From positions 1-28,687 of the forward strand of contig JACFNM010000006.1 of assembly GCA_019454915.1 (NCBI GenBank): a stretch of 28,687 nucleotides of DNA, in the 5' to 3' direction. Of this stretch, positions 7,791 to 23,626 are shown one piece after another. The DNA comes from Chitinophagaceae bacterium. GTDB taxonomy: Bacteria; Bacteroidota; Bacteroidia; Chitinophagales; Chitinophagaceae. Position 1 is the first letter of the stretch; each line of letters begins with the position of its first letter. The notes under the pieces are model-generated. The model had not been told where the DNA came from. It made no database searches and was given only the letters and a program-made list of their open reading frames with translations. The translations under genes and the position numbers were made by a program.

Positions 7791-10700
7791 ATGATCATGT
7801 TGCCAAAACGATTCGTATGTGGAGTTGCTTTCTCCACCTTGCTTTTGCTGTTTTCGCTTTCTTATTCACTTGCTCAGGATCGGACGGTAACCGGGAGGGT
7901 TACCGACAGTAAGAATGATCCGTTATCAGGTGTTACTATTGTAAAAAAAGGAACCGCACAAGGTACCGTAACCGGAGAAGACGGGCGTTTTGTGCTGCCT
8001 GGCGTTCCGTTAAATACGGTGCTGACTTTCTCATCTGTTGGGATGGCCACTCAGGAGATTCATTTCACCGGACAGACCAATCTGGAGGTTGTTATGACAG
8101 AGGATGCTATTGGATTAGATAGGGTGGTGGTTACGGCATTGGGTCTGAAACGTGAAAAGAAAGCCCTGGGTTATTCCGTGGGTGAAGTCAATTCAGATAT
8201 GATGAATAAGGTGCCTCAGAAGGACCTGCTCGGTGCGCTGACGGCAAAGATGTCGGGGGTGAAGATTACCAATACGTCCAATGACATAAACAGCGACACC
8301 TATGTCAACATAAGGGGGCTTTCTTCTCTTGCGGGAAATAACAGTCCTTTGGTAGTGATAGACGGAGTGCCTACCGGGGATCAGCGGGTGATGAAGGATA
8401 TCAATCCGGACAACATAGAAAGTGTTACGGTGCTAAAAGGGCCGAGCGCTGCTGCGCTTTATGGTTCCAGAGCAGGAAACGGCGTAATCTTAATTACCAG
8501 CAAATCAGGTAAATCAGTAAAAAGAGGTATTGGAGTTGATGTGAATATTGGTTCTACCCTTTCGGTACCCTACAAGTACATTGATCTGCAGCGCAGATTT
8601 ACTTCGGGAATAAGCGGCGTGCTTAATGAAAACTCATATCAGCAATGGAACGGTCCGGAAGAAGGAGAAATGGCTGTACAATGGAATACAGACGGCGAAG
8701 AAAAGCCGCTGGTTTTTTATGATAATTCTCTGCAGGATTATTTCAGAACGGGCACCGAACAGGTGTATGATGTAAGTGTGAGTGGTTCCTATGACCGGGG
8801 TAGTTTCAGACTTGGAATTACTCATCTGGATGCAACAGGCGTGTATCCCGGTGTGGAATTACAAAGAAATGGTGTGAATCTCGCCGCCGTGTACAATATC
8901 ACGAACAAAGTGAAGGTGTCTACAAACATTGATGTTGCCAATCCCTATTCGGATAATTACCCGTTAAAAAACGGGGGAGAGACCCAATACATGGCCATCT
9001 ATCAGATACCACCTCATATTAATGTCAATGATCTGAAAGATTATTGGCTGGAACCGAATATACAGCAACGCAATTTTAATGCTGCTCACGATAATCCCTG
9101 GTTTGCCGCTTACGAACTGCAGGATAAATTTGACCGGATGAGAATGTTCGGCAATATCAAACTTGAGTATCAGATCCTGCCTGATCTTAAGCTTATGGGG
9201 CGCTATGCTTATAACAGCAACAATGAAAAAAGAGTGTACAGGCAGGCGTGGTCCGGTTACGGAGGTGACGGCGGCGGACAAAATAAACCTCAGGGTACGC
9301 TGAATGAAAGGATCAATAATCAAAGGGAGATGAACTCGGATGTTTTACTTTCTTACAAGAAGTCACTGGGTAAATTTGAGATTGCCCCTTCAGTTGGAGG
9401 AAATCTGATGACACAGAGAAGCTACGCGTTGTATGCCGGTGGCGATCCGCTTGTACTTCCGGGATTATATACCTTGTCTAATGTAAACCGCGATGGGCTT
9501 AGTTATTCCGACTTCACTTATAAAAAGAATATTTACAGCGCTTATGGTTTATTGGATTTGAGCTACGACAACATGATCTTTCTGAATGCTACGGCACGGA
9601 ACGACTGGTCGAGCACGCTTCCCAAAGATAATCGTTCCTATTTCTATCCTTCGCTGTCTTTAAGTGTGCTACTGAATGAAATGCTTCCCTTGCCTTCATG
9701 GGTTTCGTTACTTAAGTTACGCTCCGGTATCTCACAGGTGGGAAAGGATACGAATCCATACGTGATTGCTACCGTACTGAATCAGGGTATGTGGGGCACC
9801 AACACAACGTATAATGTTCCGGGGAATTTGCCCAATATCAACCTCAAACCCGAAATCGCCAAAGCGTTTGAAATTGGGACGGATATCTCGTTTTTCAATA
9901 ACCGCTTAGGCGCAGACTTTACCTATTACAAGGTGCAAAATACCAACCAGATATTAAATGCCTCAACGTCTTCTACGTCGGGTTACACCGCAGCCACGAT
10001 TAATGCGGGTAATATTGAGAATTATGGTGTAGAGATAGGATTGAATGTGACGCCCGTGCGGACTAAAAACTGGAATTGGGATATACGCGCTAATTTCACC
10101 CGCGAAAGAAGCCGGTTAATGGAATTGACTCCGGGAATAGACCAGTTTATGTTCTGGGGAAGCACCCATGTGTTTGCCATTACTCAGGTGGGCGAGTTAA
10201 TTGGCGATATTTACACAAGAGACATGATCCGCGTAGAGGATAAGAACAGTCCGTATTATGGTTGGCCGCTTTTGAACTCCAATGGGAAACTGCAGCGCAA
10301 TAACGATAATGACGCCATGATAAAAGTTGGCAATTTCTTACCGGATTTTATGGTCGGAATGCAAACGGGGTTATCCTATAAAAGGATTTCTCTTTCTCTC
10401 AGTATTGACTGGAGGCAGGGAGGTACTTATTACGACCAGACGATGCTGCGGTTAGCGAGGGCAGGTAAAGTGGAATACTTCCATAATGATGCCAATTCCA
10501 GCACCTTTACCGGCATTCTCAGTAATAATTCATTTAAGGGAGATAACGAGGCGTTAGCTAATGAGATTAAGTCGCACCCGGAAATTTACCAGAAAGATAC
10601 CTGGGTCGGTGGACGAACCCAGGATCTGGGAGGCTTTTTGTATTCTAACGGTGTGTATGAGGGAGCATTTTTCCCCGGCGTTATTTCAGATGGTGCGGGT

Positions 10701-11075
10701 GGATATATCGAAAATTTTGGCGGAGCAGGAACCAAATACGTGAAAGCGTATGATATCTTCCAGCCGTCCGGAGGATTTTGGGATGCAGCTATGAGATACA
10801 AGTGGTTTTATAGTAGCTCGTTTGTTAAGCTGAGAGAATTGGCCATTTCCTATGCACTACCGGATACATGGGCACATAAAGTGTTGGCGCAACATATTAG
10901 TATCGCAGGATTCATGAAAAATCTGATACTGTTTGCAGCGAATAAAACCAATCAGGATCCGGAATCCATTTATAATCAAAACCCGCTCACTGGATCGACA
11001 GAGCAGGGGAGAAATATCTGGAATGCTTCTCCGATTATCATGCCGGTGGGTTTGAAGCTTAATGTATCATTTTAA
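7791..11075 (+). CDS. SusC/RagA-family TonB-linked outer membrane transporter (first copy)
   Basis: This 1094-residue outer-membrane protein should import an oligomer or other nutrient with its SusD partner. Order: signal peptide (1-29, ending SLAQ), carboxypeptidase-regulatory-like domain (about 32-110, VTGRVTDSKNDPLSGVTIVK), TonB-box-like DRVVVTALG, plug domain with the SusC hallmark PLVVIDGVPTGD and VLKGPSAAALYGSRAGNGVI, then a long beta-barrel ending in the OMP-type terminal Phe (LKLNVSF). There is no STN domain, so it is not expected to signal through a FecR anti-sigma factor. An alternative ATG lies two codons in. SusD follows after 13 bp. No glycoside hydrolase is adjacent, so the substrate cannot be guessed. 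Confidence 0.95.
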   Translation: MIMLPKRFVCGVAFSTLLLLFSLSYSLAQDRTVTGRVTDSKNDPLSGVTIVKKGTAQGTVTGEDGRFVLPGVPLNTVLTFSSVGMATQEIHFTGQTNLEVVMTEDAIGLDRVVVTALGLKREKKALGYSVGEVNSDMMNKVPQKDLLGALTAKMSGVKITNTSNDINSDTYVNIRGLSSLAGNNSPLVVIDGVPTGDQRVMKDINPDNIESVTVLKGPSAAALYGSRAGNGVILITSKSGKSVKRGIGVDVNIGSTLSVPYKYIDLQRRFTSGISGVLNENSYQQWNGPEEGEMAVQWNTDGEEKPLVFYDNSLQDYFRTGTEQVYDVSVSGSYDRGSFRLGITHLDATGVYPGVELQRNGVNLAAVYNITNKVKVSTNIDVANPYSDNYPLKNGGETQYMAIYQIPPHINVNDLKDYWLEPNIQQRNFNAAHDNPWFAAYELQDKFDRMRMFGNIKLEYQILPDLKLMGRYAYNSNNEKRVYRQAWSGYGGDGGGQNKPQGTLNERINNQREMNSDVLLSYKKSLGKFEIAPSVGGNLMTQRSYALYAGGDPLVLPGLYTLSNVNRDGLSYSDFTYKKNIYSAYGLLDLSYDNMIFLNATARNDWSSTLPKDNRSYFYPSLSLSVLLNEMLPLPSWVSLLKLRSGISQVGKDTNPYVIATVLNQGMWGTNTTYNVPGNLPNINLKPEIAKAFEIGTDISFFNNRLGADFTYYKVQNTNQILNASTSSTSGYTAATINAGNIENYGVEIGLNVTPVRTKNWNWDIRANFTRERSRLMELTPGIDQFMFWGSTHVFAITQVGELIGDIYTRDMIRVEDKNSPYYGWPLLNSNGKLQRNNDNDAMIKVGNFLPDFMVGMQTGLSYKRISLSLSIDWRQGGTYYDQTMLRLARAGKVEYFHNDANSSTFTGILSNNSFKGDNEALANEIKSHPEIYQKDTWVGGRTQDLGGFLYSNGVYEGAFFPGVISDGAGGYIENFGGAGTKYVKAYDIFQPSGGFWDAAMRYKWFYSSSFVKLRELAISYALPDTWAHKVLAQHISIAGFMKNLILFAANKTNQDPESIYNQNPLTGSTEQGRNIWNASPIIMPVGLKLNVSF

Positions 11076-11088
11076 AAAAAAGTAAGAG

Positions 11089-12864
11089 ATGAAAAATATT
11101 TTTTCTAAAGCGCAGATATTGAGATCTAAAATGCTTGGATTGGCGCTGACATTTGTACTTGTGATCACATCCTGTCAGGATTTGTCGGAGATCAACAAAA
11201 GCCCCAATCAACTGAGCGCCAGTGAAATTAATATTAAATATGTGCTGACCTCTGTCCTTGCCGGCACGGCACATGATTATATTTATGAATATGCTTATCC
11301 GGGCGGATGGACCATTTCAGAGGCCATGCAGTATCTTCAGCGTGATTATATTGACTTTCAGGGGCCCAATACTTTTGTATGGGGACCTAAAGATTTCAGC
11401 GCACCCTATTCCAGGATTAAAAACAGTCAGTATATATTAGAAAATGCTGAACTGGAAAAATCAGAGAACAATCAACGGTTTTATACGGCGGTGGGGCAGA
11501 TCATGCGTAGTTTCTGGTATGGCTTTTTAACTTCAATACATGGCGATATTCCGTATTCGGATGCCATGAAGGCGGAGGAAGGCAATTTTACGCCGGTATA
11601 TGACAGCCAGAAGGATATTTTTAAAGGCATCCTGGATGATTTAAAATCAGCCAATGACATCCTGGCCCAGGTATCATCCGTAGATGGCGCCTCATCCAGT
11701 GATATCCTGTTTCAGGGAGACCCGGCGAAATGGCGGAAATTTGCCAACTCACTGCGACTGAGGTTTTTGATGAGATTATCCGAAAAGGCGTCTGATATGA
11801 GCAGCGTTGGATTGGATGTAAAGTCGGAGTTCAATAGTATTATAAGTAACAGCTCGGCTAATCCGGTTTTCACTTCTAACAGTGACAATGCTGCCATCTC
11901 TTTTATCGGAAGCGCTGCTGCCAACTCCTGGTACGGTGGTCCGCTCTGGCATACCAACCGGTCGGAATTCTATCGCCGGAAACCGTGTGCCACTTTCGTA
12001 GATGCCATGATTGACGGCGGCGACCCGCGCCTGACCACTTTTATCAGCCCGGTTGATGCCCAATTGAAGATCAGTGATGCTACGCCTACGTATTCAAAAC
12101 TTCCGGATGGACAGATTATTAGAAACATTCCCACTTCAACACCCGGTAAGGATCAACTGAATACCCACCGGTATGTGGGTCTTCCGCCGGCATTGCAGGA
12201 TCCTAACCTGTATAACTTAGCCACGGATGTTGACTTTAATGCCATTAAAGCGTTGAATCCCGCTATTTATACGGATTTAGCTGCCAACCCGGGGGTTTCC
12301 TATCTGGGGAATATTTATGCACAAAATGCCAATCCGCTGGTGAAGACGGTGTTGATGAGTTATTCAGAGCTTTGTTTTATTCTTTCTGAGGCCCGGTTAA
12401 AGGACTGGTTCAGTAGTGGCAATGCGGTTGATTACTACCAGTCCGGAGTATTAGCCAGCATGCGTCAATATGATATAGCCGATGGAAGTATCAAAGTATA
12501 CGACCCCAATACCGATGTATTAATGGCATGGAATGAGAGCGCATTTCTTAGTAACCTTGCAGGAGATTTTACGAGCGCTGATGATGGAGGAAAACTTACT
12601 CAGTTGATGACTCAAAAATGGCTGGCATGTTTTATGACTCCGGAATTCTGGTTCGATTGGCGCAGAACGGGCGTTCCCAACCTTGGTGCTAACCTGATCC
12701 TGGCAAGCAATGGTAATAAAATTCCGGTACGTATTGTTTATCCCGATACAGAAAAGAATTTGAATAGCAGTAGCGTTGGAGAAGCCATCAGCCGATTGGA
12801 GCCGGGAGAAGATAGTCACTGGAGCAAAATGTGGTTATTACAAGGCACCAATAAGCCCTGGTAA
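11089..12864 (+). CDS. SusD/RagB-family surface lipoprotein (first copy)
   Basis: This 591-residue partner of the preceding SusC is the substrate-capturing lid on the cell surface. The signal peptide ends in lipobox VITSC with C29 as lipidated residue. The body is mostly helical with TPR-like segments. Family-type signatures include the C-terminal block LMSYSELCFILSEARLKDW and the late WLACFMTPEFWFDWRRTGVP, which best fit the SusD-like type 2 branch. It follows SusC by 13 bp, so they are co-transcribed. A strong stem-loop terminator lies 73 bp after the stop. Confidence 0.93.
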   Translation: MKNIFSKAQILRSKMLGLALTFVLVITSCQDLSEINKSPNQLSASEINIKYVLTSVLAGTAHDYIYEYAYPGGWTISEAMQYLQRDYIDFQGPNTFVWGPKDFSAPYSRIKNSQYILENAELEKSENNQRFYTAVGQIMRSFWYGFLTSIHGDIPYSDAMKAEEGNFTPVYDSQKDIFKGILDDLKSANDILAQVSSVDGASSSDILFQGDPAKWRKFANSLRLRFLMRLSEKASDMSSVGLDVKSEFNSIISNSSANPVFTSNSDNAAISFIGSAAANSWYGGPLWHTNRSEFYRRKPCATFVDAMIDGGDPRLTTFISPVDAQLKISDATPTYSKLPDGQIIRNIPTSTPGKDQLNTHRYVGLPPALQDPNLYNLATDVDFNAIKALNPAIYTDLAANPGVSYLGNIYAQNANPLVKTVLMSYSELCFILSEARLKDWFSSGNAVDYYQSGVLASMRQYDIADGSIKVYDPNTDVLMAWNESAFLSNLAGDFTSADDGGKLTQLMTQKWLACFMTPEFWFDWRRTGVPNLGANLILASNGNKIPVRIVYPDTEKNLNSSSVGEAISRLEPGEDSHWSKMWLLQGTNKPW

Positions 12865-12936: not shown

Positions 12937-12982
12937 TAAATTTCAAAAGCACCCTTGACATCAAGGGTGCTTTTGAAATTTA
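12937..12982. terminator. Long perfect-stem bidirectional terminator
   Basis: A 22-bp perfect inverted repeat (12937-12958 pairing with 12961-12982) has a two-base loop (CA) as drawn; in RNA the innermost pairs would open. The core is AGCACCCTTGA with flanking A/T arms that give a U tract on either strand. It lies between the convergent susD-1 and truncated LOG gene, whose stop codon is only 20 bp beyond it. Confidence 0.85.
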
Positions 12983-13001
12983 AGAGGTATGGCATAGTAG
13001 A

Positions 13002-13588
13002 ATTAAAAATTCGGCGCCAGTTGTCTTGTCCGGTAATATTCTAGCATGTATTGAACCACATCTTCAGCGGTGTCGGCAATTTCAAACAGGGATAAATCGT
13101 CTGCATGAATATTGCCTTCTGCCAGCATCACGTCTTCAAGCCAGGCCATTAATCCCAGCCAATATTTTCTGCCGACGAGTACCATTGGCATTTGTTTGAA
13201 CTTTTCCGTTTGCATTAGCGTGGCTACTTCAAAAAATTCATCTAAAGTGCCAAATCCGCCCGGCATCATCACAAAGCCCTGGGAGTACTTGGTGAACATA
13301 ACTTTTCGAACGAAGAAATAATCGAAGTTGAGCAGTTTATCTTTATCTATATATTCATTAGGGCGTTGTTCAAAAGGGAGGTCAATATTTAAACCGACAC
13401 TTTTCCCCTCGGCTTGTAAGGCGCCCTGGTTGGCTGCTTCCATAATACCCGGCCCGCCGCCGGTGATAATTCCAAAACCTTCTTCCGATAACCTTCTCGC
13501 TATTTCGGCCGATAATTCATAATAATGCGTTCCCGGTTTGGTTCTGGCAGACCCGAATATGGATATGCAGGGCCCGATTTTGGATAAG
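13002..13588 (+). repeat. 587-bp direct repeat, copy A
   Basis: Reading base by base, 13002-13588 equals 21310-21896 without a visible mismatch, at a constant offset of 8308 bp. At the right end the copies differ at 13589 (A versus G), share CTTCA, and then diverge at 13595. At the left end similarity stops just outside the stop codon of the LOG gene. Copies are in the same orientation. Confidence 0.95.
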
Positions 13589-13632
13589 ACTTCACATCTG
13601 GGGTTGCTGGCATATTGGATAGTCAACACCAT
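13003..13632 (-). pseudogene. 5'-truncated duplicate of the LOG-family gene
   Basis: Residues from SKIGPCISIFGSA to the C-terminal APNF are identical to the intact copy at 21311-22006, including the motifs GGGPGIMEAAN and PGGFGTLDE. The first 38 residues of the intact protein are missing. They are replaced by about 16 codons (MVLTIQYASNPRCEVL) read antisense through a transposase remnant, which provides an accidental in-frame ATG at 13632. No convincing promoter or ribosome binding site is visible upstream. Because the catalytic motifs survive, a product is conceivable, but it is more likely a non-functional by-product of the duplication. Confidence 0.85.
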
Positions 13633-13909
13633 TCGCTATCAACTAAAACAGGCAGGCATAAACGATGACGAGAAAGAAATAAGGAGAAAAGCCTCCACAC
13701 AAAAATCAGTATTGGCTACGGCTCAAAGCAGCTTTGACAGAACCATACAAATAAAAAGGTGTACCGAACCAACATCTGATCTGCAGGAAATCCATAACGG
13801 ATTAAAAATAGGCAGGTATAAGCCCTTCAGAAAAATTAAATTTGTAGTACACAAGCCGCCACTTAAAAAAAGTGTATCTCTCGACAAAATTCAGTTTGGG
13901 CCGGATTAG
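13589..13909 (+). pseudogene. C-terminal remnant of a transposase (IS1634/IS4-like)
   Basis: About 107 codons remain, starting TSHLGLLAYWIVNTIRYQLK and continuing through IQIKRCTEPTSDLQEIHNGL to PFRKIKFVVHKPPLKK before a TAG stop. HLGLLAYW-VNTIRYQLK followed by a short basic tail is typical of the C-terminus of DDE transposases of the IS1634 group; that assignment is from memory of the family. The N-terminal and catalytic part is absent: the sequence joins directly to the truncated LOG gene at 13588/13589. A 9-bp inverted pair TAGCTGCAA (13907-13915) / TTGCAGCTA (13964-13972) follows the stop and may be part of an IS end or chance. Confidence 0.7.
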
Positions 13910-14103
13910 CTGCAATGCGGCTTAAGACACTACGCGTGGATTGTGGTTCGTAAAATTAGAACGTTGCAGCTATATTTGGCAGCGAAATTTTGAAATACAC
14001 CTAATTATTTGTTATCATTGTTGTATAAATTGCAGGCTTTTTGCCTTATTCCTAAGCCGGACAAGCCGGAACTAAACAGGGAAATATTTAACTTTCCGAT
14101 ATT

Positions 14104-14240
14104 ATGGAATCGCTTACTCAAAGATATTACGAAAAAATCAGCGGAGTACTTTGTTGCTACGACCGCATAGTTATCACTGGCACACTTCCTGTTCTGAGTA
14201 ATGCCCATCATCTGACATCGTATATGTACCTATTTTATCA
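14104..14240 (+). pseudogene. N-terminal fragment of a dispersed mobile-type ORF
   Basis: From ATG 14104 the frame reads MESLTQRYYEKISGVLCCYD, then RIVITGTLPVLSNAHHLTSYMYLF. This resembles, from memory, the first ~45 residues of a ~450-residue protein found in scattered copies in many bacterial genomes and often annotated as hypothetical. Here similarity stops near 14235 and the frame ends at 14286 inside the sigma-factor gene in another frame, so only a relic remains. The preceding 13910-14103 shows no gene, only a short direct repeat AGCCGGA. Family assignment is uncertain. Confidence 0.5.
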
Positions 14241-14257
14241 CACAATGCCAAAACGAG

Positions 14258-14863
14258 TTGAAACGCGTGAGAAAACCTTCTGTTGACATACAGGATTTAT
14301 TGATACGCATTGGTGAGAGAGATGATATGACTGCTTATGAAAAGTTTTATTATCACTTTTATACACCGCTATTTAATTTTGCCCTGTCCATAGTTGATTC
14401 CAGGCAACAGGCAGAGGAGATTGTATCAGATGTATTCGTTAAAATATGGCGCTCCCGCAAAACGCTTTTGAAAATTAATAATATAAGCACATATCTTTAT
14501 ACCTGTGTTCGCAACGGGGCTATTGACTATTTGAACCGTATGCGAAAACACGAAATCATACATTTCTCTCCTACCGATTACAAAGATGTATTTATTGAGT
14601 TGAGGAATCCATCGGATCATTGTATCTCGACAGATTTGATGAAAAAAATAAATGACGCAATTAATCAGTTACCTTCTCAATGTAAGGTGATTTTTAAGTT
14701 GGTCAAAGAGGATGGATTGAGTTATAAACAGGTTGCTGAAATTATGCACTTATCACCCTTAACCGTTAGGAATCAATTAGCTATCGCAATTAGAAGGATG
14801 GGAGAAATCCTGCCGGAACATATCTACAACGACTCGGGTTCCGGCAAACGCGAAAAAGTATAA
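14258..14863 (+). CDS. ECF (FecI-like) RNA polymerase sigma factor
   Basis: The 201-residue reading starts at TTG 14258; a stop at 14213-14215 and no in-frame ATG before codon 24 leave TTG 14258, GTG 14267 or ATG at DDMTAYEKF as possible starts. Homology to the family begins before that ATG (VDIQDLLIRIGERDD), so TTG or GTG is favoured. Region 2 is at about residues 25-95 (AEEIVSDVFVKIWRSRKTLL) and region 4 at about 138-190 (LPSQCKVIFKLVKEDGLSYKQVAEIMH with LSPLTVRNQLAIAIRRM). It should direct transcription of the FecR-SusC-SusD unit or its regulon when released by FecR. Mobile-element debris directly upstream may have replaced its original start. Confidence 0.88.
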   Translation: MKRVRKPSVDIQDLLIRIGERDDMTAYEKFYYHFYTPLFNFALSIVDSRQQAEEIVSDVFVKIWRSRKTLLKINNISTYLYTCVRNGAIDYLNRMRKHEIIHFSPTDYKDVFIELRNPSDHCISTDLMKKINDAINQLPSQCKVIFKLVKEDGLSYKQVAEIMHLSPLTVRNQLAIAIRRMGEILPEHIYNDSGSGKREKV

Positions 14864-14961
14864 GGCATATTTTGTTCTCCCTTTACTTAAAATAATATTC
14901 CTCTTTTGGTACATTCTTATCCGTTTATCAGTCTGTATTAAGACTACATTGATTTAAAAAT

Positions 14962-16059
14962 ATGGATCAGCAACGTTTCTGGTTATTGGTAAGTTTAAAA
15001 TTGAGTGGCGAGGCTACCCGGGAAGAGCTACTGGAACTTGATGACCTCATACAACGAAATTCTGAAACAGGACTCAAGCATGCAGTAATTTCGGGAATAT
15101 GGAATGAAAAAGCCCCCTTGCCCGACATATCGCATTTATTCAAAAGCCAGGTAGAACGGTTAAGACGGGAGGGTGAACTGGGAGAAGAGTCAATCCCTTC
15201 TTCGCTTGAATTGCAGGATTTTACCCCCGTAATTAAGCGGAAATCCAGGCTTCTTTATTTGCTAACGGCCGCTGCGAGCGTAATAGTCATTTTTTTTTGC
15301 TGGAAATTTTTTTTGAAGAACAAAACAGATATGCAGCATGAAATACCGCTGGCTTCAAATATTATCACAACGCAAAAAGGATCTAAGACAACCGTGCAAC
15401 TGCCCGATGGCACAAAAGTGTGGCTTAATGCCGACAGCAGAATATATTACGACGAAAATTTTAAAGGCGATTTGCGTGAGATTCAATTAGAAGGAGAAGC
15501 ATTTTTCGAGGTAAAAAAAGACTCTTCAAGGCCATTTGTGATTCATACAAGCATTGTTGATATAAAAGTATTAGGAACCACTTTTAACGTAAAATCCTAT
15601 AATAACGAAGACGCAACAGAAACGTCTTTGATATGCGGTAAAGTGGAAGTAAGTCTTAAAAGTAATCCGGAAAAGAAAATTATACTGCGCCCCAATGAGA
15701 AACTGGTGGTAAAGCATGGTATTGGCAACGAAGTGATAAAGCGCACAATAGGCGATGAAAGCGCATTGCTGCTGGTGAAACCATTACGCAAAGATCCGGC
15801 TTATAAAAACTCATTGGAAACTTTATGGATAGATAACAAGCTGGTATTTGACAGTGAGACTCTGGAAGAAGTGTGCAAAAAACTGGAACGGTGGTATAAT
15901 GTAAAGATTGCCATACACGATGAAGAAATGAAGAAAGATACTTACACCGCCATCTTTGACGGGGAAACACTACTGAATGTGCTTACTGCATTAAAAATGG
16001 CCGATAAGCTTGATTTTACCATTCACAATAACGAAGTATCCATTTTTGCGAAAAAGTAA
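14962..16059 (+). CDS. FecR-family anti-sigma factor
   Basis: This 365-residue inner-membrane protein is organised as in Bacteroidota FecR regulators. A cytoplasmic N-terminal part (1-95) binds the sigma factor, one membrane helix spans about 97-118, a FecR domain follows (about 130-235; TTQKGSKTTVQLPDGTKVWL, EGEAFFEVKKDSSRPFVI, VLGTTFNVKSY), and a C-terminal DUF4974-type domain lies at about 285-362 (LVFDSETLEEVCKKLERWYN). It should receive a signal from the STN domain of the downstream SusC across the periplasm and control the sigma factor encoded 98 bp upstream. The 98-bp gap has no obvious TAnnTTTG box. Confidence 0.93.
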   Translation: MDQQRFWLLVSLKLSGEATREELLELDDLIQRNSETGLKHAVISGIWNEKAPLPDISHLFKSQVERLRREGELGEESIPSSLELQDFTPVIKRKSRLLYLLTAAASVIVIFFCWKFFLKNKTDMQHEIPLASNIITTQKGSKTTVQLPDGTKVWLNADSRIYYDENFKGDLREIQLEGEAFFEVKKDSSRPFVIHTSIVDIKVLGTTFNVKSYNNEDATETSLICGKVEVSLKSNPEKKIILRPNEKLVVKHGIGNEVIKRTIGDESALLLVKPLRKDPAYKNSLETLWIDNKLVFDSETLEEVCKKLERWYNVKIAIHDEEMKKDTYTAIFDGETLLNVLTALKMADKLDFTIHNNEVSIFAKK

Positions 16060-16145
16060 AATCTTCGATATTTCTCAAAAAACCTCATTTTTTACCAAAC
16101 AATTGCTTTATATGAAAAGAGTTACATAAATCAACCAACAAAAAA

Positions 16146-16207
16146 GCGGAAGATGTTTCCGGCATCCTCCGCCAACAGACGAAAAAAACCGCATGCAAAT
16201 ATGCGGT
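16146..16207 (+). promoter_or_regulatory. Two hairpins in the susC-2 leader
   Basis: The 179-bp gap between fecR and susC-2 contains two stem-loops. The first (16146-16172) pairs GCGGAAGATG with CATCCTCCGC, ten positions with one mismatch, loop TTTCCGG. The second (16188-16194 with 16201-16207) pairs ACCGCAT with ATGCGGT, loop GCAAAT, ending about 30 nt before the start codon. Neither is followed by a long T run, so they look more like leader or processing structures than a simple terminator. Function is inferred. Confidence 0.45.
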
Positions 16208-16238
16208 ATTCCTTCATTGTTAAATCAATATGCAAAGT

Positions 16239-19200
16239 ATGAAAAAAAATGCATTTGCACCTGCAAAAAAGTGGGTAAATAGTTATTTCAAATATCTAAT
16301 AGTGACTAAAATTACCTTGATACTTACAGTTGTTTTTTCTTCACAGCTATTTGCGAATAGTTTCGGACAGAATGTAACCGTAAAATTTGAAAAAATAGAA
16401 TTAAAAAAGGCGCTTAAAGTTCTTGAAGAGAAAAGCTCATACCGGTTTGTATACAAAGATGATGTATTACTAAAATGGCCGAAAGTCAACCTGTCCGTGG
16501 AAAACGTACCGCTTACAACAGTGTTGGATAAGCTTTTTGAGAACACGACCCTGCGTTATCAGAGAGTTGGTAATACACTCCTGGTGTTAAGTAACGTTAG
16601 CGCCGACCACCCGGTTTTGCGCGATGTGCCGCAAACGATTACCGTTAAGGGGAAGATAACAGGCACTGTGGGAGACCCTTTGCATGGCGTTACGATCATG
16701 GAAAAGGGTAGTACCAACGGTACTTCTTCTAATGCAGAAGGTAATTTTTCTATTGATGTTACCAATGAAAAAGCTATATTAGTATTCAGCTATGTTGGCT
16801 ATAAATCTCAGGAAATAGCAGTAGCAGGTAAGTCTGTCATTGACGTGGTAATGGTGGAAGATGCAGAGAGCCTTCAGGATATAGTAGTAGTGGGTTATGG
16901 CACGGTAAAGAAAAAAGATGTTACCGGTTCTATCATTTCTTTGCAGGCAAAGGACTTTAACCGGGGAATTAATGTGGCTCCGGATCAGTTGATACAAGGT
17001 AAGACGCCCGGGGTAATGGTAATTAACAATACAGGCCAGCCCGGAGGCTCTACAACGGTGCGTATCCGGGGTAACTCTTCTATCAGAGCCAGTAATAATC
17101 CATTGTTTGTGCTGGATGGAATTCCTTTGTCGGGAGGTTCGGCCCGCCCGGGGGGAAGCGGCGGTTTTGGATCGGATAGCGGTAACCCGTTGGCTTACCT
17201 GAACCCCAGTGATATAGCGAGTATGGATATTTTGAAAGATGCTTCCGCTACCGCCATTTATGGCTCCAGAGGTGCTAATGGGGTTGTTATAATCAATACA
17301 AAAAGAGGAGTAAGTGGCGCCCCCACGATCAGCGTTATGACATCGGCGGGTATTTCAAACCTACTGAGAAAACCTGAAGTATTATCGGCAGATCAGTTCA
17401 GGGAAGCGACCAAATTTTACACGCCGGATGATGCTGCCTCCGCAGATCATGGCGGAGACGTAAATGCCTTTGACGCTATTACCAGAACGGCGTTTACGCA
17501 AAATCATAGCGTAGCCATAGGTGGCGGTACGGACCGGGGACGCTATCGGTTGTCGCTGGGTTATTTAAACCAGGACGGAATCATAAAAGGCTCTAATCTT
17601 CAAAAGTTTACTGCTAATATTAATACCAACTTTAAGTTTCTGCAAAGCAAAAAGCTGGGGCTGGACGTAAACCTTTTCTTCACCCAAACCAATGAGAAAA
17701 TAGCTGCTATTGATGTTGGCGTTGGCTTTGAAGGCAACCTCATTTCGCAGGCGCTTAACTGGAATCCCACCCGGCCTTTACGGGATAACGATGGAGCGCT
17801 TACCTGGGTAAGTTCTAATGTAATAAGCCCATTGGCTACGTTAGATGCTTTTAAAGACAGAGCCGCGGTAAACACGATCATTGCCAATATTGCCCCTTCG
17901 TATAAAATAACAGATTACCTGGAATACAAACTGACCTACAGTTTAACCCGGCAAACGGGGTTGAGAACAGGTATGTATGACAGGTTGCTGATTAACCCTA
18001 CAAGTACTGAAAAAGGATTTGCATTTATGGGTAGTAATTCCAATACCGATCACCAGCTTACTCATACGCTCAGCTTCAATAAAGACGTCGCTGAATTCAT
18101 GAATCTGAATGCGGTGGCAGGGTATGAGTATCTGAGCTATGATTCAAGGTGGTATACAGAAAATGGAAATGGATTCACCAATGTGGGGCTGGACTTTTAT
18201 GATTATCTGGGGTATTCGGTAGCTTCCGCCAGGAACATCAATTCAAACCGCTCCCCCAAAAATGAATTGCAGTCATTGTTTTTGAGAGTAGGGCTGAATT
18301 ACCGAGATAAATACCTGCTCACCGGTACGGTTAGGCGGGATGGGTCCACAAAATTTGGCGTGAATAATAAATATGCCAACTTCCCGTCTCTTGCTTTTGC
18401 GTGGAACCTTTCGAATGAATCGTTCTTAAAGAATGACTTTTTCAGTGTGTTGAAGTTGCGGTTAGGCTGGGGTAAAACCGGGAATAGTGAGTTTCCTTCA
18501 GGCGCCTCAAGAAATCGTTATGTATTTGGTATGCAGAGTATCAGCCAGGCTAATTTTGGAAACCCAGATCTGAAATGGGAAACTTCCGCTACATTGAATG
18601 GCGGTTTGGATTTTGGTATACTTGATAATCGAATCACCGGTTCTATTGATGTTTTTCATAAAGCCACTACCGATGCATTATTTGAAAGAACCATCGCGCA
18701 GCCGGCCCCCAGCGGTAAAATTTGGGTAAATCTGGATGGGGAAGTGGTTAACAAAGGAGTGGAGATTTTACTGAGCGGCGCCATCATACAGAGTAATAAC
18801 TGGGGCTGGAGTATAACCGGAAATGCAACGTTTCTTAAAAATAGTGTAACCGGTTTACCCGGTTTTTACGAAACCGCAACGCTCAGGGGACAGGGATTTT
18901 CGGGTGTTGTGGGTCAGCGAATGGTGAGTGACCAACCGTTGAATGTATGGTATCTTTCAATTTTTGAAGGGATTGATCCTGCTACTGGTACCAGCAAATA
19001 TCGTAGTAAAGACGGTCATGCCGGCACAGATGTAGATCCGGCACAGAATAAGTTTTATGTAAATAGCCCGAACCCCAAAATGCTGTTAGGTTTTTCAACG
19101 GATGTGTCTTTCAAGAGACTCACCGCAACGGTAAATTTCAATGGTGCTTTTGGGCACTACCTGTTTAATAATACAATGGCTACCGTATTGGGTATAAACA

Positions 19201-19541
19201 ATCTTTCAGGCAAAAATATTTCTCCGGAATATTTCAAACCTGAATTGAAAGAATTGGTATCTAACTCTGCGGCGCCTTCTACCCGCTATCTCGAAAAAGG
19301 AGACTATATGAAACTGGCTAATGCCACTATCAGTTACAGGGTAGGAAATATCGGCAAGGCTTTCAGGAACGTGAATATTTCCTTAACAGGACAAAATATT
19401 TTTGTACTCACAAAATATAATGGATTTGATCCCGAGGTGAATACAGATGGAGCGTCCGGAGGTATTCCTTCACTGGGGATTGAGTATATTCCTTATCCTT
19501 CCGCAAGGAATATTCTCTTAGGTGTAAACTTTTCTTTATAA
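16239..19541 (+). CDS. SusC-family TonB-dependent transporter with STN signalling domain (second copy)
   Basis: This 1100-residue outer-membrane protein has an alternative ATG three codons upstream at 16230. A long basic signal peptide (about 1-43) is followed by an STN domain (about 46-118; VTVKFEKIELKKALKVLEEK, and NTLLVLS). Then come a carboxypeptidase-regulatory-like domain (about 132-210), a TonB-box-like LQDIVVVGYGTVKKKDVTGS, a plug with PLFVLDGIPLSGG and ILKDASATAIYGSRGANGVV, and a barrel ending LLGVNFSL. The STN domain is the element that contacts FecR, so transport and induction are coupled, unlike in the first SusC. SusD follows after 18 bp. Confidence 0.95.
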   Translation: MKKNAFAPAKKWVNSYFKYLIVTKITLILTVVFSSQLFANSFGQNVTVKFEKIELKKALKVLEEKSSYRFVYKDDVLLKWPKVNLSVENVPLTTVLDKLFENTTLRYQRVGNTLLVLSNVSADHPVLRDVPQTITVKGKITGTVGDPLHGVTIMEKGSTNGTSSNAEGNFSIDVTNEKAILVFSYVGYKSQEIAVAGKSVIDVVMVEDAESLQDIVVVGYGTVKKKDVTGSIISLQAKDFNRGINVAPDQLIQGKTPGVMVINNTGQPGGSTTVRIRGNSSIRASNNPLFVLDGIPLSGGSARPGGSGGFGSDSGNPLAYLNPSDIASMDILKDASATAIYGSRGANGVVIINTKRGVSGAPTISVMTSAGISNLLRKPEVLSADQFREATKFYTPDDAASADHGGDVNAFDAITRTAFTQNHSVAIGGGTDRGRYRLSLGYLNQDGIIKGSNLQKFTANINTNFKFLQSKKLGLDVNLFFTQTNEKIAAIDVGVGFEGNLISQALNWNPTRPLRDNDGALTWVSSNVISPLATLDAFKDRAAVNTIIANIAPSYKITDYLEYKLTYSLTRQTGLRTGMYDRLLINPTSTEKGFAFMGSNSNTDHQLTHTLSFNKDVAEFMNLNAVAGYEYLSYDSRWYTENGNGFTNVGLDFYDYLGYSVASARNINSNRSPKNELQSLFLRVGLNYRDKYLLTGTVRRDGSTKFGVNNKYANFPSLAFAWNLSNESFLKNDFFSVLKLRLGWGKTGNSEFPSGASRNRYVFGMQSISQANFGNPDLKWETSATLNGGLDFGILDNRITGSIDVFHKATTDALFERTIAQPAPSGKIWVNLDGEVVNKGVEILLSGAIIQSNNWGWSITGNATFLKNSVTGLPGFYETATLRGQGFSGVVGQRMVSDQPLNVWYLSIFEGIDPATGTSKYRSKDGHAGTDVDPAQNKFYVNSPNPKMLLGFSTDVSFKRLTATVNFNGAFGHYLFNNTMATVLGINNLSGKNISPEYFKPELKELVSNSAAPSTRYLEKGDYMKLANATISYRVGNIGKAFRNVNISLTGQNIFVLTKYNGFDPEVNTDGASGGIPSLGIEYIPYPSARNILLGVNFSL

Positions 19542-19559
19542 TAGATAAATTAACTTTTT

Positions 19560-21101
19560 ATGAATACAAAACAAGGTATTTACGCAGTATTCATTTTGTC
19601 ACTCTTATCCTTTTCCTGCACAAAACTGAACGAGGAACTTAGAAGCAATCTCGAAGAAGGGGTAAGTGGTAGTGCCAATACTGCCGAGCTATTGATTAGT
19701 GCTTATTCAACACTAAACACTCCTTACCAGCAGCAGAGCAGATGGTGTTTACAGGAGTTGTCAACAGATGAAGCTATTGCGCCAACGAGGGGTGGTGACT
19801 GGGACGACAATGGAACCCACAGAGCCATCCATTTACATACCTGGAATGCCGACAATAGTTATATGAATAATACCTATAATCAACTGGGCACAGCGGTATT
19901 TCAGTCTTCCAATGTGTTGAGAAATAATCCGTCAGCCCAACAGGGTGCCGAAGCGCGCTTTATCAGGGCACTGGCGTTATTGGATATGATAGATTTATGG
20001 GGCGTGGCGGTATACCGGGAAGATCTTGATAATTTCAGGGTTGATCCGAAAGTAATGACTGCCGAAGAAGGGTTGAATTTTGTGATCGGCGAGATAAATG
20101 CGATTATGAATGATCTCCCTGCATCCGGCCCGGCTTACGTTGCCAGTAAAAATGCCGCAAGGGTATTGTTGATGAAAGTGTACCTCAATAAAGGCGCTTT
20201 CCTTAACCGGGAAAATCCAACTTTTGCACCGGAAGACATGAATAAAGTAATCGAACTGGCTGATCAGGTTACCGGTTACACAATTTCTGCGCCTGGAAAA
20301 TACTTCGACAATTTTGCACCTGACAACGATGTGAAATCTACCGAAAATATCTTTACGCTATATAACAAAGAAGGAGACAGAGGTGGCTCTATGAGCAGAA
20401 CCTACAATACAATTGCGCATTACAATATGAAACCGGGCGGATGGAATGGATGGGCAACTTTGGGTACTTTTTATGATAAATTCACTTCAGATGATGAACG
20501 CAGGGGCATAAATTACAGTTATCCTGCCTTTGGCCGGCCTAACCCCAGCGGTGCACCCAATGTTGGATTTTTAGCCGGGCAACAATATGATCAAACTACA
20601 GGGACGCCACTAATGGCAAGGAATCCATCTAGTCAACCCCTCGTATTTACCCATGACATCACTATACGGACCTCCGGCAATACCCTTGAAACTGCCGGTA
20701 TCAGGGTACTAAAGTATGCCTACGACTATGCTTCGCAAAGTGGACAGAAAAACAACGACTGGGTTGTGTACAGGTACGCTGATGTATTACTGATGAAGGC
20801 AGAGGCTATATTGCGTGGTGGAACAGGAGGCGGTACCAATGCATTAGACATTGTCAACGATATTCGCTCTGCACGAGGCGTGCCTGATCTTTCATCGCTT
20901 AGTATTGATGAACTACTGGACGAACGCGGTCGCGAGTTGTACTGGGAGGGATGGAGACGACAGGATTTGATTCGTTTTGGAAAATTTTTAGGCACATGGG
21001 TAACAAAGCCGGAGGCAGGGCAGCCAAAAGAATTGCTCTTTGCGCTCCCCAGCCAGCAAATTGCTGTCAATCCCAGCCTGAAGCAAAACCCGGGGTACTG
21101 A
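19560..21101 (+). CDS. SusD/RagB-family surface lipoprotein (second copy)
   Basis: This 513-residue lipoprotein has signal peptide and lipobox LLSFSC with C20. SusD features include the N-terminal repeat helices (EARFIRALALLDMIDLWG), the central NAARVLLMKVYLNKGAFLN and the C-terminal signature DWVVYRYADVLLMKAEAILR followed by ELLDERGRELYWEGWRRQDL. This is the classic SusD/RagB type, distinct from the SusD-2-like first copy. It pairs with the preceding SusC and is the last gene of the sigma-controlled unit, followed by a strong stem-loop. The substrate is unknown because no hydrolase gene accompanies the pair. Confidence 0.95.
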   Translation: MNTKQGIYAVFILSLLSFSCTKLNEELRSNLEEGVSGSANTAELLISAYSTLNTPYQQQSRWCLQELSTDEAIAPTRGGDWDDNGTHRAIHLHTWNADNSYMNNTYNQLGTAVFQSSNVLRNNPSAQQGAEARFIRALALLDMIDLWGVAVYREDLDNFRVDPKVMTAEEGLNFVIGEINAIMNDLPASGPAYVASKNAARVLLMKVYLNKGAFLNRENPTFAPEDMNKVIELADQVTGYTISAPGKYFDNFAPDNDVKSTENIFTLYNKEGDRGGSMSRTYNTIAHYNMKPGGWNGWATLGTFYDKFTSDDERRGINYSYPAFGRPNPSGAPNVGFLAGQQYDQTTGTPLMARNPSSQPLVFTHDITIRTSGNTLETAGIRVLKYAYDYASQSGQKNNDWVVYRYADVLLMKAEAILRGGTGGGTNALDIVNDIRSARGVPDLSSLSIDELLDERGRELYWEGWRRQDLIRFGKFLGTWVTKPEAGQPKELLFALPSQQIAVNPSLKQNPGY

Positions 21102-21143
21102 AATTGCAACTTGTTCGGTGTAAACCTATAAGTTCAAATTATG

Positions 21144-21181
21144 AACCAATAGCCTTTGCCTTATCGCAAAGGCTATTGGTT
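21144..21181 (+). terminator. Terminator after susD-2
   Basis: AACCAATAGCCTTTGC (21144-21159) pairs perfectly over 16 bp with GCAAAGGCTATTGGTT (21166-21181), loop CTTATC. A weak T tract overlaps the 3' arm. It lies 43 bp after the SusD stop. The following 21182-21309 shows no gene. Confidence 0.75.
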
Positions 21182-21309
21182 TAGGTAGGAGCTGCTGGTT
21201 AAATCCGTGGCAACTGATAAATAAGATATCCAGTGCGAAAATGACACTGATGCGAGATTTTCATCGGCTTTACGCTTGATAACGGCTAGCCGGGTAAGGT
21301 ATGTTAGAC

Positions 21310-21896
21310 ATTAAAAATTCGGCGCCAGTTGTCTTGTCCGGTAATATTCTAGCATGTATTGAACCACATCTTCAGCGGTGTCGGCAATTTCAAACAGGGA
21401 TAAATCGTCTGCATGAATATTGCCTTCTGCCAGCATCACGTCTTCAAGCCAGGCCATTAATCCCAGCCAATATTTTCTGCCGACGAGTACCATTGGCATT
21501 TGTTTGAACTTTTCCGTTTGCATTAGCGTGGCTACTTCAAAAAATTCATCTAAAGTGCCAAATCCGCCCGGCATCATCACAAAGCCCTGGGAGTACTTGG
21601 TGAACATAACTTTTCGAACGAAGAAATAATCGAAGTTGAGCAGTTTATCTTTATCTATATATTCATTAGGGCGTTGTTCAAAAGGGAGGTCAATATTTAA
21701 ACCGACACTTTTCCCCTCGGCTTGTAAGGCGCCCTGGTTGGCTGCTTCCATAATACCCGGCCCGCCGCCGGTGATAATTCCAAAACCTTCTTCCGATAAC
21801 CTTCTCGCTATTTCGGCCGATAATTCATAATAATGCGTTCCCGGTTTGGTTCTGGCAGACCCGAATATGGATATGCAGGGCCCGATTTTGGATAAG
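21310..21896 (+). repeat. 587-bp direct repeat, copy B
   Basis: Identical by eye to 13002-13588 and in the same orientation. This copy lies inside the intact LOG gene and covers its last 195 codons and stop, but not the first 36-38 codons. Confidence 0.95.
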
Positions 21897-22006
21897 GCTT
21901 CAAAGCCTTCCACAAATTCAGCCATGATCTTAAAAATCTGCCAACTGCTATGCCCGTTGCTTTCCTTCCAGTGCCTCTCTTTGAGTGTTTTTAATGTAGC
22001 GTTCAT
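21311..22006 (-). CDS. LOG-family protein (TIGR00730-type Rossmann fold), intact copy
   Basis: The 231-residue reading starts at the ATG whose complement is 22004-22006, preceded on its strand by an A-rich AAAAAAGAA; a longer reading to 22048 is less likely. The Rossmann-fold phosphate-binding segment SIFGSARTKPG (about 47-57), GGGPGIMEAANQGA (80-93) and signature PGGFGTLDE (146-154) identify the LOG family, formerly called lysine decarboxylase-like. Relatives release the base from nucleoside 5'-monophosphates, including cytokinin precursors. The true substrate here is not determined. The gene is downstream of the symporter gene but separated by a terminator. Its 3' 587 bp are duplicated at 13002-13588. 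Confidence 0.92.
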   Translation of the reverse strand: MNATLKTLKERHWKESNGHSSWQIFKIMAEFVEGFEALSKIGPCISIFGSARTKPGTHYYELSAEIARRLSEEGFGIITGGGPGIMEAANQGALQAEGKSVGLNIDLPFEQRPNEYIDKDKLLNFDYFFVRKVMFTKYSQGFVMMPGGFGTLDEFFEVATLMQTEKFKQMPMVLVGRKYWLGLMAWLEDVMLAEGNIHADDLSLFEIADTAEDVVQYMLEYYRTRQLAPNF

Positions 22007-22102: not shown

Positions 22103-23626
22103 TTAGTTTGTTGGGCTTGCTTTTTTTGAAATGAGCATTAGCCCGGCATAGGTCAGCAGTCCATTATAAATCAACAGTTCGTAACCGATCTTGAAATCGC
22201 GGAAGATGGCGTGGGAAAGAGATTTTATGTTTTCAACCCATGCACCGTCTAAGTTGAGCTGGGGTTGATACCATTGGATATTATTGATTAAGTCAATACC
22301 GAGAATAATGGTGGGCGCCAGCAAACATATAACGAGTGACAGACGATCCCTGATGGAGCGTTTACTCAAAATGCCGAAAGCAAATAGTCCCAATAAAGGA
22401 CCATAAGTAAATCCGGCTATTTTAAGGATAACGTCAATGATGGATTTGTTATCTACCAGTTTGAATCCCATCACCACTAAAAAGAAGATGAAGGCAAAGC
22501 TGAAATGGGTAGTGAGCCTGATGCGTTTCTTCTTTTCCTCACCCCATTCCGCATTTCTTTTTAAGCCTAATATATCAATACAAAATGAAGAGGTTAATGC
22601 CGTCAGCGCCCCGTCAGCGCTCGGAAAGAGCGCCGAAATCAGAGCGATGATAAAAATGATCGACACGGCGGTAGGCATGTGATGCAGAGCAGCAGTGGGG
22701 AACAAATCATCCGGCGGTACGCTGATTCCGTTTTTGGAAGCAAAAAGGATGAGTAATCCACCCAAGAATAAAAAGAGAAAGTTCACCAGCGCCATAATGG
22801 TGCTGAAAGTCATCATGTTTTTTTGAGAATCTTTCAGATTTTTTACACTGATATTTTTTTGCATCATTTCCTGGTCAAGCCCCGTCATAGCAACAGTGAT
22901 AAATGCGCCGCCAAGAATATGTTTAAGGAAATGAGACGGGCTGTTGATATCGGTATTGAATATTTTGGTGAGTTGAAGGCTTCTTAATTCATTCAAGGTC
23001 CCGAAAAAACTGTGCCCCAGGTTGGTCATAATATAAATGATACACACAATCAATCCTAAGAGCATGAAGGAGGTTTGCAGCGTATCGGTGAATACGATCG
23101 TTTTGACTCCTCCTTCAAAGGTGTACAGTATAATCATGAATAAGATCACCAGGGTAGTCATCCAGAATGGTATCCCGAGGTTGTCCAGGATGAAGATTTG
23201 GAGGATATTAATGACCAGATATAACCGGGCTGTGGCGCCTAATGTTCTTGAAATGATAAAGAACAATGCGCCGGTTTTGTAAGAAACCATTCCAAACCGG
23301 TGTTGAAGATAATTATAGATAGAAGTGAGGTTGAGCCGGTAGTATAAAGGCAACAAAATAAATGCAATCAAAAAGTATCCAATCAGGTAACCGATAACCA
23401 CTTGAAAATAGGCAAAGGCGCTTCCGCCCACTGTTCCCGGAACTGACACAAAAGTGACTCCCGATAAGGAAGTGCCAATCATCCCAAAGGCAACCAGCAT
23501 CCAGTTGGAGTTTCTGTTACCGATGAAAAAAGAATCATTATTGGAGTTGCGCGATGTATAATAGGCGACCACTAAAAGAAGCAGGAAATACCCTATTACA
23601 AAGGAGAAAAGCAGCCAAGGGGTCAT
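22103..23626 (-). CDS. Sodium:solute symporter family transporter
   Basis: This 507-residue inner-membrane protein has about 13 hydrophobic helices, as expected for the SSS family. Family features include FFIGNRNSNWMLVAFGMIGT, SLSGVTFVSVPG, and FEGGVKTIVFTDTLQTSFML, plus ALFPSADGALTALTSSFCID in helix 9, which holds the conserved Ser/Asp sodium-site pattern. The substrate (sugar, sialic acid, amino acid or other) cannot be told from sequence by eye. It is transcribed divergently from the oxidase-like gene 103 bp away. Confidence 0.92.
   Translation of the reverse strand: MTPWLLFSFVIGYFLLLLVVAYYTSRNSNNDSFFIGNRNSNWMLVAFGMIGTSLSGVTFVSVPGTVGGSAFAYFQVVIGYLIGYFLIAFILLPLYYRLNLTSIYNYLQHRFGMVSYKTGALFFIISRTLGATARLYLVINILQIFILDNLGIPFWMTTLVILFMIILYTFEGGVKTIVFTDTLQTSFMLLGLIVCIIYIMTNLGHSFFGTLNELRSLQLTKIFNTDINSPSHFLKHILGGAFITVAMTGLDQEMMQKNISVKNLKDSQKNMMTFSTIMALVNFLFLFLGGLLILFASKNGISVPPDDLFPTAALHHMPTAVSIIFIIALISALFPSADGALTALTSSFCIDILGLKRNAEWGEEKKKRIRLTTHFSFAFIFFLVVMGFKLVDNKSIIDVILKIAGFTYGPLLGLFAFGILSKRSIRDRLSLVICLLAPTIILGIDLINNIQWYQPQLNLDGAWVENIKSLSHAIFRDFKIGYELLIYNGLLTYAGLMLISKKASPTN

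Follow-up and report, generated by a model that had tools for sequence, protein, structure and literature searches.

A sigma/FecR/SusC/SusD cassette between direct repeats of part of a LOG-family gene in a Chitinophagaceae bacterium: a possible single-crossover integration

Introduction

The locus described here raises the question of how a sigma-controlled SusC/SusD cassette came to lie between two identical pieces of a LOG-family gene. The window, by which we mean the whole stretch of 28,687 nucleotides analysed, comes from the draft genome (802 contigs) of a soil-type Bacteroidota bacterium, and the comparison set consists of 11 other genomes of the same genus, one per species, with labels including G003, G006, G008, G010, and G011. 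The original prediction, made from the sequence by itself, was that a circle had integrated by a single crossover or that a segment had been tandemly duplicated, with an assembly artefact as the alternative.

Results

Comparison of the contig with itself bears out the predicted repeat, with positions 13002–13588 and 21310–21896 identical at 587 of 587 bases, in direct orientation and offset by 8308 bp. Both copies read on the reverse strand; the left one covers LOG between its stop codon and roughly codon 36, and the right one lies within the intact LOG gene. The repeat is indeed the 3' part of LOG, although at about 84% it is more than the three-quarters first proposed. Local alignment widens it to 12986–13594 and 21293–21902 (610 bp, 99.0% identity), so there is weak similarity just outside both edges of the exact block; such edge scores are reached by 0.7–0.8% of random position pairs at the LOG 3' edge and by 3.6% at the other. 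Same-strand repeats of at least 100 bp and at least 95% identity are rare, with one instance, a 103-bp tandem, among 88 LOG-centred loci (1.66 Mb, including several in which one genome is counted twice), and chance is therefore not the explanation of a 587-bp repeat. Across all contigs of the draft genome the only other copy is a distant 66% match.

The surroundings of the repeat are those of a LOG locus found elsewhere in the genus. To the left are the native susC1 (7791–11075) and susD1 (11089–12864) genes on the forward strand, with TonB-dependent and SusD-like Pfam matches, and their order beside LOG is the same in G010 and G011 at 81–88% identity. To the right is the native neighbour, a sodium:solute symporter gene (22103–23626, reverse strand; PF00474), which adjoins LOG in all 11 relatives. 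The predicted empty site was found in two of the 11 genomes, G010 and G011, which have SusC1-SusD1-LOG-symporter with one LOG and no insert, and removal of 8308 bp from the window yields a single unbroken 8.9-kb alignment to each of them, with both outer flanks of the insert in agreement. The insert between the copies is 7.7 kb, and because it is missing at this locus in both empty-site relatives, the middle segment is not native to the locus in them and plain tandem duplication is unsupported. The 3' neighbour of LOG is labile within the genus, with three states in the 10 relatives that can be read at this position.

The insert carries, in order and all on the forward strand, genes for an ECF sigma factor (14267–14863; TIGR02985, 140.6 bits; GTG start chosen by comparison with the G008 homologue), a FecR-type anti-sigma factor (14962–16059; PF04773 and PF16344), a TonB-dependent transporter with an STN signalling domain (susC2, 16230–19541; TIGR04056, 701 bits; STN, PF07660), and a SusD protein (susD2, 19560–21101; PF07980). 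In systems of this kind SusD binds the ligand and SusC imports it, while the STN domain signals via FecR and the sigma factor switches the operon on, and by this analogy the most likely role of the cassette is that of an inducible importer in the outer membrane. The insert has no gene for a polysaccharide-degrading enzyme, and the motif TTTG-N17-23-TAnnTTTG, which we take to be the Bacteroidota promoter motif, occurs at six sites in the window, none of them before the sigma gene or the re-headed LOG. Like other Bacteroidota sigma-FecR-SusC(STN)-SusD units (FecIRA-like cell-surface signalling), the cassette has the four parts in order, and it is unremarkable beside them except that, from about 34 bases before the sigma start, the upstream region is mobile-gene debris in place of the original.

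The affinities of cassette and locus are discordant. The sigma factor is 81% identical to that of G006 and 63% to that of G008, SusC2 is 88% and 86% identical to its homologues in these two genomes respectively, and SusD2 is 86% identical in both, whereas against the same genomes LOG is only 69–73% identical and the oxidase 65–66%. The opposite holds for G010, with 89% identity in LOG and only 64–66% in SusC2 and SusD2. This disagreement had not been part of the original prediction. Both G006 and G008 hold the four cassette genes in other surroundings, with DNA similarity stopping at the operon ends. Since SusC2 and SusD2 are close to those of genus members that are distant at LOG, the cassette was probably acquired horizontally. 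As to how it travels, no SusD2 relative was confirmed in viral contigs by our scan, the 28 plasmid records with SusD homologues are all below 60% identity, and the exact 21-base pattern at the left junction gave no match in viral contigs, which is a weak test.

Two truncated genes, also absent from the earlier description, occupy the left end of the insert. The first is the right end of an IS1634-type element (13595–13925, forward strand), comprising a transposase C-terminus with its stop at 13909 followed by an end motif, reaching to about 13925, that is common to three relatives. The fragment is 75% identical to a sequence in G003 and 59% to a G010 homologue of full length, which matches NF033559 (transpos_IS1634) with 237 bits; the fragment itself has no Pfam match. 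The second (14049–14232, forward strand) is the 5' fragment of a gene that is probably mobile. It has a 24-bp upstream box (14049–14072) identical at 24 of 24 bases in G010, and codons 1–43 (14104–14232), whose product is 77% identical to the N-terminal 43 residues of a G010 ORF of 504 aa; the remainder of the gene was not found in this genome. A Pfam scan of the insert's main ORFs found no intact mobility gene.

The intact LOG gene (TIGR00730; 21311–22006, reverse strand) encodes 231 aa, counted from the ATG common to the relatives, and is 69–92% identical to LOG of the 11 congeners. The left LOG ORF (13003–13632, reverse strand; 209 aa; PF03641, 116 bits; TIGR00730, 146.8 bits) has the whole LOG domain and, N-terminal to it, about 14 new residues encoded across the left junction, J1, and in a protein search this fusion occurs only in this contig among the 120 matches listed. 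As placed by comparing the two copies and the transposase relatives, J1 (13588–13595) joins LOG at about codon 36 into the transposase gene, with about 5–6 bases of microhomology. The right junction, J2, is the end of a 208-bp tail downstream of susD2 (21102–21309), one base from the LOG stop codon; the tail contains a predicted hairpin at 21142–21183 (–28.3 kcal/mol, z –8.0). The terminator-like hairpin expected 20 nt from the left LOG stop is present in the susD1/LOG spacer at 12937–12982 (–30.9 kcal/mol, z –9.6), and the same spacer in relatives contains a GC-rich, hairpin-like stretch. The left copy thus keeps the native 3' side and the right copy the native 5' end, in the geometry anticipated. 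The further expectation that excision would restore an intact LOG fails, since the right LOG is already intact; excision would restore no gene and would leave one LOG of the two. A separate origin for the repeated portion of LOG and its unique 5' portion was considered and rejected, as their identities to G011 (464/588 and 91/113) do not contrast.

Discussion

Relative to two congeners, this contig contains an insert with definable borders, flanked by a duplicated piece of LOG and carrying a cassette whose affinity differs from that of its locus. The explanation we favor, with a probability of roughly 0.45, is that the cassette was brought beside LOG by a non-replicating circle, which carried a trimmed 3' end of LOG and entered through a single homologous crossover. 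The cassette would have entered this lineage from elsewhere, from a donor strain in which susD2 was convergent to LOG, the two meeting in the spacer at what is now J2. A donor fragment with one break within LOG and the other within the IS transposase gene would have had its ends closed into a circle, leaving J1 as a scar, and recombination of the circle with the recipient LOG would have placed the recipient LOG 3' side and J1 at the left and the intact LOG at the right. The cassette unit should then be able to exit by RecA-type recombination between the repeats.

This is a simple history with experimental precedent in E. coli. In that study the diagnostic PCR product for a partial lacZ duplication was obtained from 56 of 60 Lac- clones, the 14 that were sequenced had duplications of 109–950 bp, and these were ascribed to trimmed, re-closed circles entering by a single crossover (PMC3240628). 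The locus here resembles such Campbell-type integration in that part of one gene is directly repeated on either side of the insert, with the native 3' side at one copy and the native 5' end at the other, and its 587 bp fall inside the range of the lacZ duplications. It differs in being natural rather than engineered, with a circle that is postulated, and in that one copy of LOG has remained whole, whereas trimmed-fragment clones in E. coli had the Lac- phenotype (PMC3240628).

The nature of the junctions, with J1 joining two gene interiors and J2 lying in a spacer at the LOG stop, supports entry as a circle, as do the lability of the LOG 3' neighbour, the empty sites with their colinear alignments in G010 and G011, the discordant affinity of the cassette, and the lack of an intact mobility gene among the main ORFs scanned. 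The weak similarity present in both flanks past the LOG stop would be compatible with two variants of a single LOG 3' flank. Counting against it, a DNA comparison of the 208-bp tail with the 11 other genus genomes gave no match. Among 91 LOG 3' flanks the best edge score for resemblance to the tail is 5, compared with 6 for the resident flank, and the gene order proposed for the donor was seen in no genome. Because the copies do not differ at any of 587 bases, whereas at the DNA level LOG of the nearest relative is about 79% identical, the incoming LOG piece would need a near-identical strain as its source, unless gene conversion had levelled the differences. The identity had also been read as a sign of a recent event, but it is a weaker sign than it looks, as gene conversion or assembler merging yields identity too.

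The identity of the copies is explained directly by a possible though somewhat unlikely alternative, in which a linear cassette fragment without LOG DNA was joined illegitimately, through microhomology, at two points 587 bp apart on sister LOG copies, duplicating resident DNA. The microhomology at J1 and gapped similarity at J2 agree with this, and truncated mobile genes already form a mosaic at the insert's left end, so that illegitimate joins are common there. However, two independent joins on sister copies are required, it would be by chance that J2 lies a single base from the LOG stop codon, and the true illegitimate integrations reported in E. coli (4 of 60 clones) gave deletions rather than duplications (PMC3240628).

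We regard as unlikely a contig that merges an empty-site chromosome, or population, with a free 8308-bp circle carrying one LOG fragment. Integrated and free forms share the same assembly graph, the 587-bp block is longer than ordinary short reads in an 802-contig draft, and an assembler resolving simple loops would output exactly such a contig. The main ORFs of such a circle include no replication gene, however, and the circle would therefore need continual production by excision, which presupposes the integrated form.

It is quite improbable that one or both junctions are chimeras of assembly or library construction and that the cassette lies elsewhere than at LOG. The draft state of the genome speaks for this, as does a fused LOG protein that, among the 120 matches listed, occurs only in this contig, but the few bases in common at J1 would not suffice for a false overlap, chimeras would have to have arisen twice, and the outer flanks match G010 and G011. 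Hardly credible is carriage by an integrase-type island or a composite transposon with the repeat as attachment site or target duplication: transposase debris lies at one insert end, and some integrative elements do insert at the 3' part of a gene and leave it intact, as here, but the main ORFs include no integrase (by Pfam scan) and no intact transposase, the left end is only a 3' fragment of one IS and the right end has no recognised IS, 587 bp far exceeds an attachment core or a short target duplication, and in G006 and G008 similarity is confined to the operon and the loci do not hint at a cassette set between long repeats.

SusC/SusD pairs are known to move between genomes, and a gut survey reports 47 SusC/SusD loci carried by mobile elements (PMC6907783). 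The pair here has probably moved likewise, although unlike those loci it has no recognised conjugation, integration, or transposition gene. In the portions of the literature examined we found no natural case of this kind, which does not prove that none has been published. The mechanism is already known and the example, although new, is ordinary and changes no known mechanism. It seems most doubtful that the 587-bp repeats make the cassette reversible and amplifiable, such that cells of the population would switch between an integrated form, an excised circle, and a multi-copy state, with the circle spreading between strains, integrase-free, by using LOG as its landing homology. If the single-crossover history is correct, the locus would be a natural case, visible in the sequence, in which an importer complete with its own regulation came to a new place in the chromosome while carrying no recognised mobility gene, and as a by-product a metabolic gene would have been duplicated with a new start.

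Results

The perfect direct repeat of the original prediction is borne out: 13002-13588 and 21310-21896 match over 587 bases without a single difference, in direct orientation and with an offset of 8308 bp, and local alignment stretches the similarity to 610 bp at 99.0% identity (12986-13594 versus 21293-21902). The edge past the stop codon of the LOG-family gene continues with matching bases and a gap, and the opposite edge with one mismatch and five matches; edge scores this high occur in 0.7-0.8% and 3.6% of random position pairs, respectively. A survey of 88 LOG-centred loci (1.66 Mb, several representing the same genome twice) turned up just one locus with a same-strand repeat of 100 bp or more at 95% identity or higher, a tandem of 103 bp; a second LOG piece reaching 40% identity was absent from all of them. 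The left LOG copy (13003-13632) retains the resident 3' side, and the terminator claimed 20 bp from its stop corresponds to a hairpin 20 nt away; the right copy (21311-22006), expected to keep its 5' end, is complete and has the symporter next to it.

The window is a complete contig of a draft genome (4.64 Mb, 802 contigs), and the named proteins nearest to LOG, among the matches listed, are largely from Agriterribacter or Chitinophagaceae; the genus is probably Agriterribacter. The predicted empty site is found in two same-genus relatives, G010 and G011, which have the order susC1-susD1-LOG-symporter with a single LOG and a susD1-LOG spacer of about 150-165 bases. Both possible ways of removing 8308 bp from the window give one identical sequence, which aligns in a single piece with G011 (8904 columns, 76.5%) and G010 (8936 columns, 75.2%); the unedited window gives two pieces with each, the targets overlapping by the repeat. 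Judged from these alignments, the 7.7-kb cassette region at LOG is an insertion.

Leftmost in the insert are about 330 bp of IS1634-type sequence, the element's right end, in which the transposase terminus is 75% identical to a fragment in G003 and 59% identical to a G010 homologue of full length, itself a match to the NCBI IS1634 model. Another full-length IS1634-type transposase (L124, G000:C752) is 45% identical to the window fragment, and its contig starts at the IS end motif. To the right lies a second truncated gene (14049-14232), represented by its first 43 codons. Its 504-residue G010 homologue (L151:735-2249, G010:C48) lies near a contig end and reaches the cut-off of no Pfam family (best E 0.008), and a 24-base upstream box is identical in the window and G010; the family of about 504 residues with its box may be part of an undescribed mobile element. 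There follow, in order, sigma, FecR, SusC2 (with an STN domain) and SusD2, then a strong hairpin and 127 more bases to LOG. Upstream of sigma only about 34 bases (14232-14267) resemble its homologues, with the second gene's 5' part farther out, and the promoter of that gene may therefore drive sigma. The G+C content at 14001-17000 is lower, 0.35-0.41 in most 1-kb steps versus about 0.40-0.47 elsewhere.

The same four genes are placed among different ORFs in two other relatives, G006 and G008. DNA similarity covers window positions 14288-21099 for G006 and 14369-21097, split into two pieces, for G008, and thus spans the operon and ends at its ends. Identities to G006 and G008 are 88% and 86% for SusC2 and 86% for both SusD2 proteins, with 73% and 69% for LOG and 65% and 66% for the oxidase. 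In G010, LOG (89%), the oxidase (77%) and SusC1 (88%) are close and the best SusC2/SusD2 homologues reach 64-66%; in G011, LOG is 92% identical and no listed SusD2 homologue exceeds 46%, and the absence of an oxidase orthologue from this draft (88% complete) leaves no second yardstick there. Among 294 family genomes sampled, its own included, SusC2 identity above 67% is confined to the window, G006 and G008; the nearest SusD2 in a large protein set is 91% identical. Horizontal acquisition of the cassette is the simplest reading of these identities, with old paralogues and repeated loss a possible alternative. Sigma (81% and 63% to G006 and G008) and FecR (73% and 56%) are less similar than SusC2 and SusD2, which counts against simple block transfer.

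Discussion

We put at about 0.45 the probability that a single homologous crossover of a circle placed the cassette at LOG. The two junctions are asymmetric: at J1 (13588-13595) LOG is fused at about codon 36 to the transposase gene interior, and at J2 (21309/21310) the intergenic tail meets LOG a single base away from the stop codon. This is what a circle would be expected to leave if susD2 were convergent to LOG in the donor strain, with J2 the native border, and if J1 were the point at which two broken ends closed; one crossover in LOG would then give exactly the observed map. The geometry and the empty site fit this part of the original prediction, but the donor order, with the cassette tail beside LOG, was found in no genome (91 LOG 3' flanks; 11 other genomes of the genus). 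On this reading the LOG piece must derive from a nearly identical strain, or gene conversion has levelled the two copies; either way the identity of the repeats gives no date, and the claim of a recent event is weakened.

A readily changing LOG 3' neighbour also fits the single-crossover circle. By gene order this boundary is labile across the genus (L116-L123, L166-L168): the neighbours are three ORFs in LOG's direction in six of 11 relatives (174-215, 407-445 and 178-180 aa), a convergent FG-GAP/ASPIC protein in G003, an amidohydrolase and then an FG-GAP/ASPIC protein in G001, and susD1-susC1 in G010 and G011. The G007 contig (L119, G007:C97) breaks off on this 3' side about 115 bases beyond LOG, perhaps a sign of a repeat or rearrangement in that genome as well. 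The symporter is constant on the 5' side in these relatives. In E. coli, 56 of 60 Lac- clones from a linearised incoming plasmid gave a PCR product diagnostic of partial lacZ duplication (109-950 bp in the 14 sequenced), from which the authors inferred trimming, re-closing and a single crossover; the remaining four clones had integrated the DNA illegitimately and carried deletions (PMC3240628).

Two illegitimate joins on sister LOG copies would account for the repeat identity more directly, but they leave the position of J2 at the LOG stop to chance, and we regard them as rather unlikely. Still more doubtful is an empty chromosome and a free circle merged in one contig, an arrangement that yields the same assembly graph as the integrated map and so cannot be told from it in the contig. 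Chimeric joining of unrelated DNA is less probable, because J1 shows only about 5-6 shared bases and two separate chimeric events would be required; the fused LOG protein occurs in this contig only, among 120 matches listed of 8000 scored in a protein set clustered at 90%.

No LOG function was lost, since the right copy is intact. The left copy is an open frame of 209 residues with a complete LOG domain (146.8 bits versus 146.4 for the intact copy) and a new N-terminus of about 14 residues that is an antisense reading of the transposase fragment. Its domain content suggests that it could be a working protein; a motif scan of the window recognised no promoter before it. Excision had been expected to restore one intact LOG gene, and one would indeed remain, although the right copy is intact already. 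Recombination through the repeats would thus remove the importer, leaving a single intact LOG.
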